A DNA stretch of 64,000 bases from the NCBI GenBank assembly GCA_001899685.1, contig MKWG01000030.1:108082-172081 (forward strand). The letters are read 5' to 3'. The stretch comes from Sphingobacteriales bacterium 44-15. Its GTDB lineage: Bacteria; Bacteroidota; Bacteroidia; Chitinophagales; Chitinophagaceae. The notes beneath the pieces were generated by a model. That model searched no databases. It had not been told where the DNA came from and saw only the letters and a list, made by a program, of their open reading frames with translations. Made by a program: the position numbers and the translations under genes. Of this stretch, positions 5,269 through 23,681 are shown piece after piece; the stretch's first letter is position 1; each line of letters begins with the position of its first letter.

Positions 5269-5280
5269 CTTATTATCGTA

Positions 5281-5364
5281 GTGAATAGTGGTAAGTGATA
5301 AGTAGTAAGTCGTCTCACATTTCACCTTTCACGTTTATCGTTTCGCGTTTATCGTTTCACGATC
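5281..5364. repeat. 7-bp periodic array 1, inverted halves
   Basis: Twelve consecutive 7-base units in unbroken phase. The left four are variants of GTGRTAA (5281-5308), the centre is GTCGTCT, and the right units are variants of CACNTTT or ATCGTTT (5316-5364). The two halves are roughly reverse complements of each other. The right half matches array 2 at 25 of 29 positions (5312-5340 against 17284-17312). The array ends 4 bases from the stop codon of the DsbD-like gene. Confidence 0.8.
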
Positions 5365-17092: not shown

Positions 17093-17252
17093 GTATGCTT
17101 TTAAAATAAGTCAACTCATCCACGGAGAGTAGTTGATATAAAATGGAGATCTTTTTTCTATGGTTAAAAGTAAATAACAACTTATAGCACTTAATAAAAA
17201 ATCTAAGATTGGTACTACTATAGAGTTATTTTTAATCTTCATCTAGTGCTAT

Positions 17253-17315
17253 GTCAAACGTGAAATGGGAGAGGTGAAAGCTTGTCTCACGTTTCACCTC
17301 TCACGTTTCACGAAA
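17253..17315. repeat. 7-bp periodic array 2, self-complementary
   Basis: Nine 7-base units in phase: GTGAAAN-type on the left (17253-17280), CTTGTCT in the centre, CACGTTT/CACCTCT on the right. The halves pair at 18 of 20 positions (17260-17279 with 17293-17312), giving a hairpin about 60 bases downstream of the argH stop codon. Same family as array 1. Confidence 0.8.
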
Positions 17316-17376: not shown

Positions 17377-18675
17377 CTAAAACTTCCCCATCACCTTTTC
17401 CATTTGTGCCACAATACCGTCATTGCTCAAATTGCCGATACTCCCTTCATGTGTGTGATGCAATTGCTTTTTGTAATCGAAATTGAATTTGCCCTGCTCA
17501 ATATCATTGCCCACCTGGCGGTAAGCATCACGGAAGGAAATGCCTTTGTTTACCAGCTCATTCACCGCTTCCACGCTGAACAGGTATTTGTATTTCTCGT
17601 CATCCAGTATATTGTCCTTAATGCTGATGTTCGACAACATTAGTTTTGTCATCTGTATGCAGGCTTTCAATTCCTCAATAGCGGGAAACAAAATCTCTTT
17701 GGTCAACTGCATATCGCGGTGGTAACCTGAAGGAAGGTTGTTAATGAGGAGCGTCAGCTCATTTGGAGTTGATTGTATCCTGTTGCATTTTCCTCTTATC
17801 AGCTCAAATACATCCGGGTTCTTTTTATGCGGCATAATGCTGCTGCCGGTAGTGAGCTCACTGGGAAAAGAAATAAAGCCGAAGTTCTGGTTGATATACA
17901 GGCAGGCGTCCATTGCCAGTTTACTTAAGGTTGCCGCTACGCTGCTGATACCTATGGCAACTATCTTCTCCGTTTTGCCCCGGCTCATCTGCGCATATAC
18001 TGAATTGTAGTTCAGCGCTCCGAATTGCAATAGTTCTGTTGTAAGCGTTCTGTTCAGCGGAAATGATGAACCATATCCTGCACCACTACCCAGCGGGTTT
18101 TTATTAGCTACCTGGTACGCGGCAGCCAATAGTTCCATATCGTCGGTCAGGCTTTCTGCATAAGCGCCAAACCATAACCCGAATGATGAGGGCATAGCTA
18201 TCTGGAGATGCGTATACCCCGGCAATAATTTGTCTTTGAATTTTTCGCTCTGGCTGATGAGCAGATCAAACAACTCTTTCACTTCATCTTTTATCGCCAG
18301 CACTTCAGCGCGGAGATACAATTTCAGATCCACTGCCACCTGGTCGTTCCTGCTTCTGCCGCTATGTATTTTTTTACCGGCTTCGCCAATGCGTCGGGTA
18401 AGGAGGTATTCTACCTGGGAATGCACGTCTTCTATACCTTCTTCTATCGCAAATTTCCCGGTCAGCACCTCCTTCAATATATCTTCCAGTCCTCTCACAG
18501 CGTCAACAGCATCCTGCTCATTCATCAGCCCCACTTCTTTCAGCATTTTTACATGGGCTATAGATCCCTGTACGTCGTATTGCGCCAGCAACAGGTCAAA
18601 TTCTTTATCCCTGCCTACTGTAAATTTTTCAATCAGTTCGTTTACCGAAGAATTATCTTTTTGCCAGAGTTTCAT
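17377..18675 (-). CDS. argH: argininosuccinate lyase
   Basis: Splits argininosuccinate into arginine and fumarate, the last step of arginine synthesis. The 432-residue protein has the fumarase/aspartase superfamily signature GSSIMPHKKNPD, HSGRSRNDQVA and the TGKF..EEGIEDVHSQVE region. It is the last gene of the arginine operon, separated from argE by a four-helix-bundle gene and two heptamer arrays; array 3 begins at the base next to its ATG, so its leader consists of repeats and no Shine-Dalgarno is seen. Confidence 0.96.
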   Translation of the reverse strand: MKLWQKDNSSVNELIEKFTVGRDKEFDLLLAQYDVQGSIAHVKMLKEVGLMNEQDAVDAVRGLEDILKEVLTGKFAIEEGIEDVHSQVEYLLTRRIGEAGKKIHSGRSRNDQVAVDLKLYLRAEVLAIKDEVKELFDLLISQSEKFKDKLLPGYTHLQIAMPSSFGLWFGAYAESLTDDMELLAAAYQVANKNPLGSGAGYGSSFPLNRTLTTELLQFGALNYNSVYAQMSRGKTEKIVAIGISSVAATLSKLAMDACLYINQNFGFISFPSELTTGSSIMPHKKNPDVFELIRGKCNRIQSTPNELTLLINNLPSGYHRDMQLTKEILFPAIEELKACIQMTKLMLSNISIKDNILDDEKYKYLFSVEAVNELVNKGISFRDAYRQVGNDIEQGKFNFDYKKQLHHTHEGSIGNLSNDGIVAQMEKVMGKF

Positions 18676-18724
18676 GTTTGTGAGTTGGAGGTTTCAAGAT
18701 ACAGGTTTCAGGTTACAGGTTGCA
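18676..18724. repeat. 7-bp periodic array 3, abutting argH start
   Basis: Seven units in phase: GTTTGTG, AGTTGGA, GGTTTCA, AGATACA, GGTTTCA, GGTTACA, GGTTGCA. It starts at the base adjacent to the argH start codon. It is the inverted partner of array 4; the inner ends TGCAGGG (18721-18727) and CCCTGCA (19261-19267) are perfectly complementary. Confidence 0.8.
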
Positions 18725-18727
18725 GGG

Positions 18728-18801
18728 CATTTCAATTTTTTGTCTCGTACACAATTTATGAGCCGGGAAACACCTGTCTCCCACTTGCAAAAATTGAAAT
18801 G
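18728..18801. repeat. 14-bp inverted repeat beside array 3
   Basis: CATTTCAATTTTT(T)G at 18728-18742 pairs with CAAAAATTGAAATG at 18788-18801, with one extra T in the left arm. It lies between the four-helix gene stop and array 3 and may act as a terminator-like or processing hairpin. Confidence 0.5.
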
Positions 18802-18823
18802 TGTCCGTTTCAAAATGAATATA

Positions 18824-19213
18824 TCAGGGTTTTGCTGATGGATATTCATTGAGATTGTCAGAGACCCATTGAGTATATTTGTTAATTTGCTTACTAAGTG
18901 ATTCATAATCATCTCTAATCTTCTTATATAAAGCGTTATCAGTTAATGATTTTGTTTCGTACAAAAAATCAAGATGTATAATTATTTCATCACATTCAGC
19001 ATGAGCGTATATAAGAAACTTAATAAAATCCGCCTTGTACTTCTTGCGTCCATAGCCTTCAACAATAGATGAAGTGATACTTTTGGATGAACGCCTTATC
19101 TGTGATCCTTCTTCAAACATTTCAAATTTTGGCAATCCCAATGTGATTCGGTGGATTTCAATGGCAAGCCTTTTAGACAAGGGGTAAATCTGCAGATCCC
19201 GGTAACTTTTCAT
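18824..19213 (-). CDS. four-helix bundle (S23/IVP-type) protein
   Basis: A 129-residue all-helical protein with the family pattern YRDLQIYPLSKRLAIEIHR..., RRSSKSITSSIVEGYGRK, and FLIYAHAECDEIIIHLDFLYE. The family is the same fold as the proteins encoded in 23S rRNA intervening sequences and the Avd accessory proteins of diversity-generating retroelements; a nucleic-acid role is suspected but not settled. It is inserted between argE and argH, in the operon's direction, inside a pair of inverted heptamer arrays. No reverse transcriptase is nearby. The match to the family is clear; the role is unknown. Confidence 0.85.
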   Translation of the reverse strand: MKSYRDLQIYPLSKRLAIEIHRITLGLPKFEMFEEGSQIRRSSKSITSSIVEGYGRKKYKADFIKFLIYAHAECDEIIIHLDFLYETKSLTDNALYKKIRDDYESLSKQINKYTQWVSDNLNEYPSAKP

Positions 19214-19260
19214 GGTTAAATTTTTTAGAAGACTGTAAATTTATTACAATCTTGCCTATC

Positions 19261-19295
19261 CCCTGCACCCTGAGCCTTGAGCCTTGAAACTTGTC
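19261..19295. repeat. 7-bp periodic array 4, abutting argE stop
   Basis: Five units in phase: CCCTGCA, CCCTGAG, CCTTGAG, CCTTGAA, ACTTGTC. The last unit overlaps the argE stop codon. It is the inverted partner of array 3, with the four-helix gene between them. Confidence 0.75.
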
Positions 19296-20391
19296 ACCTC
19301 ACCGCCTTGCCCAACAACTCCACATACAACCTTACTCCTTCCCTGATCTCATTTACAAAAATAAATTCATCAGCGGTATGGCTTCTGGCAGAATCTCCCG
19401 GGCCAATCTTGAGCGCAGGAAAAGGCATCAGCGCTTTGTCGGAAGTGGTGGGAGACCCGTAATAGGTCCGACCAAGCTCCAATCCGGATTTTACCACCTG
19501 ATGATCAACAGCAATGGACGAAGACCGCATCCGCAGACTTCTTGGCGTGATCTCACAGGAGACATTGCTTTGAATCACAGCAAGCAGCTCTTCAAAAGTA
19601 TACAGCTCATTCACCCTGATATCCACTACAAAGCTGCACTGAGAAGGTACTACGTTATGCGCTTTATTTTCTGTTTGAACTACCGTAACGCTCATCTTGA
19701 CAGGACCAAGCAGATCAGAGACTTTTGGAAACCGGTACGTGCTGAACCAGTTAATATCTTTAATGGCTTTGTATATCGCATTATCACCTTCTTCCCGGGC
19801 GGCATGCCCTGCCTTGCCTGTTGCCACGCAATCCAGTACCAGCAGCCCTTTTTCTGCAACAGCCATCTGCATCTGTGTAGGCTCCCCCACTATCGCCCAC
19901 GCTATACCCTTATGCTCAACAGCACTGAGAAAGGCTTTGTTATGAAGCAACATTTCTATACCACCGCTGCCGGATATTTCCTCCTCTGCTGTAGCGGCCA
20001 GTATAATGTTATGCGAAAGGTTTTCTTTTTCATAGAAATACAGAAAAGCGGCGATGAGCGATACAAGCGCTCCACCCGCATCATTGCTCCCGAGCCCGTA
20101 AAGCTTTCCATCCTTTTCCGCGGGACTGAACGGATCCAGCGTATACCCTTTATTGGGTTTTACCGTATCATGATGGGAATTCAATAAAATGCTCGGTTTC
20201 TCAGGATCAAAATGCTTATTGGCAGCGTATACATTATTGCCTATGCGGAAATGCGGCAGTCCTTTCTGTGCCAGGAACAGGCATATCGCAGCAGCGGTAT
20301 TATCTTCTTCCTTACTATAAGAAGGAGTGGCTATTAATTCTTTCAACAAATCAATTGCCTCATCTGCCAGTATGGAAATATTGTTATTCAT
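19294..20391 (-). CDS. argE: M20 family acyl-ornithine deacylase
   Basis: Zinc-dependent M20 peptidase-family enzyme expected to remove the acyl group from acyl-citrulline or acyl-ornithine in this pathway. The 365-residue protein has the metal ligands in LLNSHHDTVKP, GLGSNDAGGALVS, the catalytic TAEEEISGSGG and the late His of ARSHTADEF. In operons with an acyl-ornithine carbamoyltransferase the deacylase acts on acyl-citrulline, so argE is used in that broad sense. Its start overlaps the end of argB by 8 bases (translational coupling). Confidence 0.88.
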   Translation of the reverse strand: MNNNISILADEAIDLLKELIATPSYSKEEDNTAAAICLFLAQKGLPHFRIGNNVYAANKHFDPEKPSILLNSHHDTVKPNKGYTLDPFSPAEKDGKLYGLGSNDAGGALVSLIAAFLYFYEKENLSHNIILAATAEEEISGSGGIEMLLHNKAFLSAVEHKGIAWAIVGEPTQMQMAVAEKGLLVLDCVATGKAGHAAREEGDNAIYKAIKDINWFSTYRFPKVSDLLGPVKMSVTVVQTENKAHNVVPSQCSFVVDIRVNELYTFEELLAVIQSNVSCEITPRSLRMRSSSIAVDHQVVKSGLELGRTYYGSPTTSDKALMPFPALKIGPGDSARSHTADEFIFVNEIREGVRLYVELLGKAVR

Positions 20392-21197: not shown

Positions 21198-22166
21198 CTA
21201 CTGGCGAAGCAGGCGCGATAATATTGCCTGGGCAGCCCACACCCTGTTGGAAGCCTGCTGTGTAATAATGCTGTTTGCACCATCAAGTATCTCATCACTT
21301 AATTCCACATTTCTTCTCACCGGCAGGCAGTGCATCACTTTGGCATTATTGGTAATGGATAATTTATCACTGGTCAGCATCCACTCAGGATCATTGCAAT
21401 AGATCTTACCGTAGTCTTTATACGTGCTCCAGTTCTTGACATACACAAAATCTGCATCTTTCAATGCTTCTTCCTGGTTGTGTGTGATAGCAGCGCCTTT
21501 GGTAAATTGCTCATCCAGTTCATAATCTTCAGGATGGGTAATAGTAAAATCAGCTTCACCCCACGCATTCACCCATTGTGCAAAGCTGTTGGCCACGCAT
21601 TGCGGCAGGGCCTTTACATGCGGCGCCCAGGTGAGCACGATTTTGGGTTTACGATTTGTGGTTTGAGGTTTATGGTTTTGCAATACTTCGGTCATTGTAA
21701 TGATATCTGTAAGGCTTTGCAAAGGATGAAGTGTAGCGCTTTCCAGGCTCACTACCGGTATGCCTGCATATTTAATGAACTGCTTTATATACAGCTCACT
21801 GTAGTCATCTTCCCTGTTTTTCAACGCGGGAAAAGTACGGATACACAGGATGTCAAAGTACTTCCCCATGATAGGCGCAGCATCCTTTACATGCTCTACC
21901 TTGCTGCCGCTCATGATGGCTTCTTCTTCAAATTCGAGCGCCCAGCCTTCGCTGCCTACATTGAACACAATAGGCTCCATACCGAGGTTCTGTGCTGCTA
22001 TCTGCGTGCTGAGCCTCGTACGCATGCTCGGATTCAGAAATAACAGACCAATGCGTTTATCCTTTCCCAGTAATCTGTCTTTGAACGGATCTGCCTTATA
22101 CGCCAGCGCTTCCTTTACAATGGCATTGATATCGGGAATATCTTTTACGGAAATAAATTGTTTCAA
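21198..22166 (-). CDS. argF': N-acylornithine (succinyl/acetyl) carbamoyltransferase
   Basis: Carbamoylates an N-acylated ornithine rather than ornithine; this variant is typical of Bacteroidota and Xanthomonads. The 322-residue protein has the carbamoyl-phosphate motif SMRTRLST, the HPLQS motif and the late HCLPVRR. Position 90 in SGSKVEHVKDA is Val; by memory of the family this site is Pro in the Bacteroides succinylornithine enzyme and Glu in the Xanthomonas acetylornithine enzyme, so a succinyl substrate seems somewhat more likely. Residues 163-174 (QNHKPQTTNRKP) are encoded by a heptamer array and look like a roughly 7-residue insertion relative to the Bacteroides enzyme. Confidence 0.9.
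   Translation of the reverse strand: MKQFISVKDIPDINAIVKEALAYKADPFKDRLLGKDKRIGLLFLNPSMRTRLSTQIAAQNLGMEPIVFNVGSEGWALEFEEEAIMSGSKVEHVKDAAPIMGKYFDILCIRTFPALKNREDDYSELYIKQFIKYAGIPVVSLESATLHPLQSLTDIITMTEVLQNHKPQTTNRKPKIVLTWAPHVKALPQCVANSFAQWVNAWGEADFTITHPEDYELDEQFTKGAAITHNQEEALKDADFVYVKNWSTYKDYGKIYCNDPEWMLTSDKLSITNNAKVMHCLPVRRNVELSDEILDGANSIITQQASNRVWAAQAILSRLLRQ
21645..21680. repeat. 7-bp periodic array 5, inside argF' coding sequence
   Basis: Five units in phase on the plus strand: GGGTTTA, CGATTTG, TGGTTTG, AGGTTTA, TGGTTTT. They encode the KPQTTN-type segment of argF'. Three units are 21 bases, so such an insertion keeps the reading frame. Confidence 0.7.
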
Positions 22167-23436: not shown

Positions 23437-23478
23437 GTCAGATAGCTATAAGCTGTGAGCTATGGGCTATGAGCTATA
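23437..23478. repeat. 7-bp periodic array 6, upstream of argD
   Basis: Six units in phase: GTCAGAT, AGCTATA, AGCTGTG, AGCTATG, GGCTATG, AGCTATA. Positions 23444-23468 are the reverse complement of 23646-23670 at 24 of 25 bases. Confidence 0.85.
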
Positions 23479-23633
23479 GGCACATCGTCGTAAAAGCTTC
23501 ATAAAAACTATCAGCATCATTGTCTCTGTTACATTTGAAAATTTCACTACAATATTTTTTAATATACAAATAGATCAGTCAGCAAAAAATATTCTTCCTT
23601 CCTTGACACTTATATCAGGACAAGGCGCTAATA

Positions 23634-23670
23634 CTGTCAGCGATCAGCCCATAGCTCACAGCTGATAGCT
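23634..23670. repeat. 7-bp periodic array 7, downstream of argC
   Basis: Five units in phase (CTGTCAG, CGATCAG, CCCATAG, CTCACAG, CTGATAG), the inverted partner of array 6. The 177 bases between the two hold no reading frame of note. In the operon transcript they would form a long-stem loop between argC and argD. Confidence 0.85.
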
Positions 23671-23681
23671 CCTCCCTTCCC

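Follow-up and report, generated by a model that had tools for sequence, protein, structure and literature searches.

S23-encoding intervening sequences (IVSs) of 23S rRNA are known from Coxiella burnetii and are cited as occurring in Leptospira too (PMC4990558). In the sections of that paper available, the Coxiella IVS is described as having, directly before the ATG of the S23 protein, two or three tandem heptamers and a further, degenerate copy, an arrangement that differs between strains; the RNase III site coincides with the beginning of the first heptamer. The same sections describe the Xanthomonas S23 protein as a toroidal homopentamer, and argue that the Coxiella protein is probably not made and that its ORF is decaying (PMC4990558).

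Standalone genes of the same family (PF05635 / TIGR02436), annotated as 'four helix bundle' or 23S_rRNA_IVP, are numerous and have no known function. They are named as lone proteins, and the descriptions compared give no frame of inverted arrays around them. A similar four-helix fold is found in Avd of the diversity-generating retroelements (4dwl, 8ub7; Foldseek E 0.13-0.45, probability 1.00), a protein that works with a reverse transcriptase and a template RNA. The kinship of S23 and Avd is noted in the part of PMC10053308 available. A study of cas loci lists 18 IVP genes, one of them between cmr3 and cmr2 (PMC3936711). This gene, like the one described here, lies between two genes of one operon, and so fits an S23 habit of operon junctions; in the sections available, however, the IVP genes are read as having a CRISPR-Cas-associated function and flanking arrays go unmentioned.

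Tandem heptamers in intergenic DNA near start codons have been described as TAACTGA repeats in Beggiatoaceae, Cyanobacteria and Bacteroidetes (PMC4679880). Unlike the arrays considered below, these are direct repeats of one fixed unit, and the available sections contain no mention of S23. In our own comparison, TAACTGA fits the 3'-arm pattern AACT+N3. A search of PMC titles and abstract openings, a scope outside which subscription papers fall, returned no earlier description of operon-borne S23 genes with a frame of heptamer arrays.

The locus analysed here lies in an arg operon of Sphingobacteriales bacterium 44-15, within a window of 64,000 nucleotides (the whole stretch of DNA under analysis). 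Its features are as follows.

17377-18675, - strand: argH, argininosuccinate lyase (PF00206), the downstream neighbour
18688-18730, - strand: 3' arm in the sense of the operon, a heptamer array whose end is 12 nt ahead of the argH ATG (lag-7 score, fold)
18728-18801, - strand: small AT-rich hairpin between the S23 stop and the 3' arm (inverted repeat 18728-18740 / 18789-18801)
18824-19213, - strand: intact S23-family (PF05635 / TIGR02436) four-helix-bundle gene, 129 aa (profile match and predicted fold)
19258-19300, - strand: 5' arm in the sense of the operon, a heptamer array starting within the final codons and stop codon of argE (lag-7 score)
19294-20391, - strand: argE-like M20 peptidase/deacetylase gene (PF01546), the upstream neighbour

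Farther upstream of argE, the Pfam matches of the genes are consistent with argB, argF, argD, argC and argG, and full-length orthologues of argH are present in 12/12 genomes of the genus (own genome counted). The S23 protein scores 87 bits against PF05635 (cut-off 33.8) and 90.6 bits against TIGR02436, 'four helix bundle protein'. Its AlphaFold2 model consists of four helices (pLDDT 92.7) and is closest in fold to XCC0516 (2gsc; TM 0.85/0.94), the best match, and to BT_0352 (2rld); every match with E <= 0.001 is an S23 protein. Against the orthologue in the relative G003, dN/dS is about 0.07, at a dS of 2.2 that is near saturation. Inspection of ORFs, Pfam matches and fold matches revealed no transposase or nuclease between the arms, where S23 is the sole gene, and no reverse transcriptase was found among the nine arg-region proteins scanned against Pfam. 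Rfam gives no window match that attains the gathering score, and the element is flanked by argE and argH, not situated in an rRNA gene. A search with a simple consensus, which is not specific to Bacteroidota and makes for a weak test, found no promoter or terminator belonging to the element itself.

The two lag-7 arrays (18691-18730 and 19255-19300) each score 17/21. When the two ends of the gap (80 and 149 nt) were dinucleotide-shuffled 2000 times, neither array's value was reached in any shuffle. The mutual complementarity of the gap ends has a score of 14, reached by 5/2000 shuffles, and varies between 14 and 17 across measurements. The 43-nt arms are complementary at 30/43 positions and a shorter, 29-nt pair at 72%. 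Profiles, model and shuffles thus confirm the preliminary description of this locus as a four-helix S23-type gene within inverted heptamer arrays in the arg operon. The gene does run in the direction of the operon, all three genes being on the - strand, and the coordinates bear out that the inner array ends, TGCAGGG (18722-18728) and CCCTGCA (19261-19267), are perfect complements. The statement that the arrays abut the argE stop and the argH start holds at the first, where the right arm overlaps the stop codon; at the second, the ATG is 12 nt beyond the left arm. The inverted repeat reported in addition to the arrays is also present, with 13 perfect bp and not 14. This AT-rich hairpin overlaps the end of the left arm; it was rejected as a shared part of the element because no counterpart is found in the G003 orthologue.

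A direct comparison with a 23S IVS is offered by the genome G453, in which an S23 gene lies inside the 23S rRNA gene, in two copies (L402 and L403) that are alike in that stretch. In L402 the Rfam model LSU_rRNA_bacteria is matched from 1 to 2925 over 3,299 nt, with the S23 gene in the middle, at a point which we take, from the 23S sequence, to be helix 45. The arms consist of TCAGGAA-type heptamers adjoining the S23 start and stop; their complementarity is 25 and their lag-7 scores are 13 and 16, one arm falling just below the usual cut. In an early subset of loci, a search with short sequence words, weak for loci of 3.3 kb, had found no S23 gene inside 23S rRNA.

The window element resembles 23S IVSs in having an S23 ORF in the sense of the host transcript (a transcript which, in the window, is inferred from gene order and strand), in a length of about 430-490 nt, in complementary ends able to form a stem around the ORF, and in its sporadic distribution. 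It differs in its location within a protein-coding operon, between a stop and a start codon. Heptamer repeats are a further likeness, resting on two IVS examples: they form the arms in L402 and lie in the 5' region in Coxiella, according to the sections of PMC4990558 available. On these two examples, heptamer arms are not confined to elements in mRNA. The earlier proposal of an IVS-like plan in an mRNA holds for its architecture, in which the analogy is strongly supported.

The inverted-array layout is general, being found around most of the S23 genes examined. Genes with PF05635 above the cut-off are present in 45/60 genomes of the family, 113/148 of the phylum and 12/12 of the genus (own genome in each), and in 58/398 genomes of the phylum of an alphaproteobacterial MAG. 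A first sample comprised 80 regions of up to 16 kb, hand-picked among the matches listed, plus loci returned by searches. It contained 156 near-full S23 genes, 155 of them with at least 150 nt on both sides. With thresholds of a lag score of 14/21 per side for arrays and a score of at least 14 for complementarity, arrays were present on both sides at lag 7 in 71/155 and at lag 8 in 16, as opposed to 0-3 at lags 4, 5, 6 and 9-13; lag 14, scored on both sides of 54/155, is an echo of lag 7. Among 681 other genes of long loci, arrays on both sides numbered 15 at lag 7 and four at lag 8. Arrays are thus far commoner near S23 genes than near other genes, the opposite of a case that the preliminary description had named as speaking against it. 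Flanks were complementary for 72% of S23 genes; the figure was 9% for 300 sampled control genes and 4% when S23 flanks were mispaired. In a further control of 155 small genes, similar in size to S23, lag-7 arrays stood on both sides in five cases and flanks were complementary in 10.

A second, named sample was made up of the best 80 of 571 confirmed stretches, 78 of which had enough flank. Here lag-7 arrays framed 44 genes, lag-8 arrays eight and lag-5 arrays two, with none at other lags, and flanks were complementary in 63/78 cases (mispaired, 30/233). Arms occur in this sample in MAGs labelled Desulfobacca, Deltaproteobacteria, Syntrophobacterales, Planctomycetaceae, Alphaproteobacteria and Chlorobiota, and weakly in Cloacimonadota; the frame is absent from a Nitrospirales (L251) and an Anaerolineales (L280) locus. 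Eleven such genomes, searched whole, gave 27 S23 genes from 30 of the matches listed, some loci repeating those of the second sample: 17/27 have complementary flanks, 13 have lag-7 arrays and one has lag-8 arrays, other lags being unrepresented. In the phylum of the alphaproteobacterial MAG (Pseudomonadota), outside rRNA, 43/59 are complementary, 30 have lag-7 and four lag-8 arrays, and other lags again give none; the set includes near-perfect elements, among them L358 with arms of 48 nt.

When the samples, which overlap and are not phylogenetically independent, were pooled and made non-redundant by identical protein, 255/344 S23 genes of Bacteroidota, Pseudomonadota and others (L402 included) had complementary flanks. 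Arrays on both sides were found at lag 7 in 178, at lag 8 in 29 and at either in 205, with 0-3 at other lags. The remaining 89/344 have no arms at the threshold used. A chance origin of the layout was rejected on the strength of the shuffles, the other lags and the mispaired flanks. Three S23 genes of the Pseudomonadota set (L390, L394, L404) have a perfect 21/21 lag-7 array on a single side.

The 255 elements with arms have a median length of 486 nt and arms of 31 nt, or about 4.4 units. In 92 lag-7 elements the unit of the 5' arm is A(72%) G(92%) T(57%) N4, and the units of 18 lag-8 elements start with AGT as well. The stop codon of the upstream gene is no more than 15 nt from the start of the arm in 182/230 elements with a same-strand ORF (of 255), and in 96 it falls within the arm, at a depth of up to 35 nt; in the first 112 elements the arm ends were a median of 5 and 7 nt from the adjoining genes. 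With genes called simply as longest ORFs, 107 Bacteroidota elements with arms are in sense between co-directional genes, 11 are antisense, nine lie between convergent or divergent genes and five at a contig edge. The corresponding numbers are 67, 0, 4 and 1 in the named sample and, less strictly, 20, 4, 13 and 6 in Pseudomonadota. As background, 938/1,219 adjacent gene pairs in the loci are co-directional.

The source genome contains six PF05635 genes above the cut-off, and all six have arrays on both sides, five at lag 7 and one at lag 8, each gene with its own repeat unit. A seventh match (L007), below the cut-off, has no arrays. At the five loci L001, L002, L003, L005 and L006, flank complementarity is 16-25 and direct similarity 9-12, hence the arrays are inverted. 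All six sites lie between co-directional genes: argE/argH, hisA/hisF, hemB/hemL, sdhA/sdhB, an ABC-transporter pair and an SGNH/amidohydrolase pair, the hem, his, sdh, transporter and SGNH names being read from translations, as the Pfam scan covered the arg-region genes only. The S23 gene at the transporter pair is antisense. The copy in the hisA-hisF gap (L005, genome G000) is broken by an in-frame TAG, and the hisA stop codon lies within the array.

Within the genus, an S23 HMM match (>=55 bits) is present in 9/11 resolved hisA-hisF gaps, 7/10 sdhA-sdhB gaps, 3/5 hemB-hemL gaps and 2/9 argE-argH gaps, nine further gaps that could not be resolved being left out of these counts. Presence at argE-argH is thus sporadic among close relatives. 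The empty site that the preliminary description had suggested looking for in the arg operon of relatives does exist, G011 having a plain argE-argH gap of 73 nt. The description had also named a case that would speak against it, namely relatives with the gene and no arrays; S23 stands behind argE in the two such relatives detected, G003 and L150 (a locus from another family), and both have arrays. The argE-argH gap of G007 contains a C-terminal piece of S23 by tblastn, though it is one of the seven of nine gaps without an HMM match. Arms persist where S23 has decayed or gone, in the hem (235 nt), sdh (210 nt) and arg (249 nt) gaps of G007, and argE-argH in G010 holds a 120-nt heptamer hairpin and no S23.

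S23 proteins are 50-97% identical within the his, sdh, hem or arg site and at most 32% identical between sites. Within-site dN/dS is 0.04-0.17 for pairs with computable dS, many of which have dS above 1. Two S23 subclades with two unit types are found at the his site (ATTTGAG-like in G007 and G009, GTTTATA-like in the other) and at the sdh site (ATGTGGAA-like in G001 and G006, ATTTGAAA-like in the other); in both switches the two arms differ together and complementarity is kept. Among cross-genome S23 pairs at least 70% identical, and taking ORFs within 1,400 nt as flanking genes, 85/92 have homologous genes on both sides, five on one side and two on neither. Unit similarity exceeds its baseline of 0.36 only for S23 pairs above 50% identity, where it is 0.45, and it reaches 0.67 above 70%. 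The correlation of unit with S23 has a Mantel r of 0.228 (0/999 permutations), falling to 0.013 for pairs of up to 50% identity. The repeat unit as a feature of the host genome was considered and rejected, as unrelated S23 pairs of the same genome are no more alike in unit than others.

The window S23 protein is 72% identical to the one behind argE in L150, compared with about 61% for the flanking Arg proteins, and both elements have a similar AGGTTNC-type unit. Downstream of S23 in L150 there is a NUDIX-type gene (a name read from its sequence) and then argH, so that argH is shared at one remove. The comparison is suggestive of a transfer of the element. It is not proof, because conservation of S23 is in general lower than that of its flanks (means of 60 and 72% over 340 pairs), S23 being the higher by more than five points in 24.

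Heptamer arrays also occur without S23. A further feature of the window is of this kind.

23442-23483 / 23646-23673, no strand assigned: S23-less inverted heptamer pair, unit AGCTATG, in the argC-argD gap (lag-7 scan)

No S23 remnant is detected in this gap by HMM. The same junction holds an S23 element in L150, and that S23 has 17 same-site relatives; the window pair (23442-23673) is probably an emptied or arms-only site. Two other heptamer hairpins were noted in the window, one at 5279-5361, where two inverted arrays stand nearly back to back with no S23 gene, and one at 17250-17314, just 3' of argH (L008 1374-1436). In 1.04 Mb away from S23 genes, at least 10 inverted-paired runs were counted at lag 7, one at lag 8 and none at lags 5, 6, 9, 10 and 11, the count being a lower bound, as it lists one of the three S23-less window hairpins and misses those at 5279-5361 and 17250-17314. 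Single lag-7 arrays are over-represented in the same DNA, with 106 runs compared with 47 at lag 6 and 49 at lag 9.

In folds of the operon strand, the window arms are paired with each other in the MFE structure as well as in the centroid (z -2.15, 20 shuffles), with little gain over a shuffled-arm control (paired 0.60 vs 0.44; -164.0 vs -163.8 kcal/mol). Arms were paired in the MFE structure of 37/45 sampled elements, as against 5/45 after arm shuffling. G-U wobble was considered as proof of RNA pairing and led nowhere: on the S23-sense strand, arm mismatches in the first 112 elements comprised 146 G-U and 135 A-C, and in all 255 elements (8,278 arm pairs) 254 G-U and 316 A-C (binomial p 0.011). 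Selection for RNA pairing should favour G-U, and its failure to exceed A-C argues against such selection; the arms may therefore owe their lasting complementarity to processes acting on DNA.

The explanation that we favour, and hold as a whole to be reasonably likely, is that the insert is an S23 gene in inverted heptamer arms and represents a selfish IVS-type element in an operon mRNA, since the same layout frames most S23 genes examined and one true 23S IVS. The element would be co-transcribed with the arg operon. Its arms would pair over about 0.5 kb, looping out the S23 frame and joining the argE stop to the argH start, and RNase III may then cut the stem as in rRNA IVSs, which are excised with no religation. 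Both cistrons would stay whole, because an intercistronic junction, like the tip of a 23S helix, would tolerate a cut. The element would be passed on by descent, with occasional transfer into the same junction. S23 may recognise its own arms, a putative binding that would account for the joint change of S23 subclade and repeat unit; counted against nucleic-acid binding, S23 is not basic, the domain having a median net charge of 0 and the window protein one of +3. A bolder proposal is offered only tentatively: standalone S23 genes might mostly be mRNA-borne IVSs, of which those of 23S rRNA form a minority branch. These would be site-specific selfish elements between the stop and start codons of operons, clipped by RNase III, and each subunit of their toroidal S23 pentamer would read one unit of the element's own heptamer array.

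On our analysis RNA processing appears to be the most likely mechanism, its main rival being a mobile element that acts at the level of DNA. According to this rival, the arms serve as terminal repeats whose recognition or copying takes place in DNA, in a hairpin or cruciform, the mRNA stem is a by-product, and template switching and slippage, not RNA selection, keep the arms complementary. It would account for mismatches without G-U bias, for arms that outlast S23 at three sites in G007 (hem, sdh and arg) and at the arg site in G010, for whole-unit differences at his and sdh that keep both arms complementary, and for the excess of S23 identity over that of the Arg flanks in the L150 pair, as expected from movement. 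We nevertheless find it rather doubtful, as the arms enclose no transposase or nuclease but only S23, whose fold matches at E <= 0.001 are S23 alone, sense orientation is strongly preferred in Bacteroidota, and the similarly built 23S IVS is cut as RNA according to the sections of PMC4990558 available.

That S23 is kept by the host as a domesticated regulator, binding the heptamer arms to control expression of the downstream gene, seems unlikely. The low within-site dN/dS (0.04-0.17, with many dS above 1), the retention of the same operon junction by close S23 relatives, the joint change of unit and subclade and the position of arms at the downstream start codon would all suit such a role. A regulator would hardly be so patchy within a genus (arg 2/9, hem 3/5, sdh 7/10 and his 9/11 resolved gaps), however, nor would decayed copies such as the G000 his copy with its in-frame TAG be expected, and the flanking genes belong to unrelated pathways. 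Mere coincidence, with heptamer arrays as common intergenic repeats of Bacteroidota among which S23 genes happen to lie, is highly improbable. The excess of single lag-7 arrays in control DNA (106 vs 47 and 49) and the S23-less hairpins of the window itself fit this idea, but at the same cut of 15/21 there are at least 10 inverted-paired lag-7 runs in 1.04 Mb as against 46/155 S23 genes, unrelated S23 genes of the same genome do not share units, and the pattern recurs in other phyla.

Inverted arms of 7- or 8-nt units, operon junctions and site-bound clades together make S23 genes a definable element with predicted ends. This physical frame makes the long-open nature and movement of IVSs directly testable, and viewing S23 genes as parts of an element offers a reason for their presence in cas and biosynthetic operons. 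By the same view, processed inserts may be present in the mRNAs of many bacterial operons.

Some further gaps and arrays are of a less regular kind. In G002 and G005 the argE-argH gap (L010, L011) contains several lag-7 arrays of differing units, apparently as nested inverted pairs, with no S23 HMM match. The sdhA-sdhB gap of the same two genomes (L236, L237) is 846 nt long, has no S23 and ends in what appears to be another coding sequence, so that this junction may be a general insertion spot. Within the window, a lag-7 array at 21648-21680 lies inside the coding sequence of argF (OTCace), where the protein reads NHKPQTTNRKPK compared with KEKRRPK in the L150 homologue, as if the array had been absorbed into the frame.
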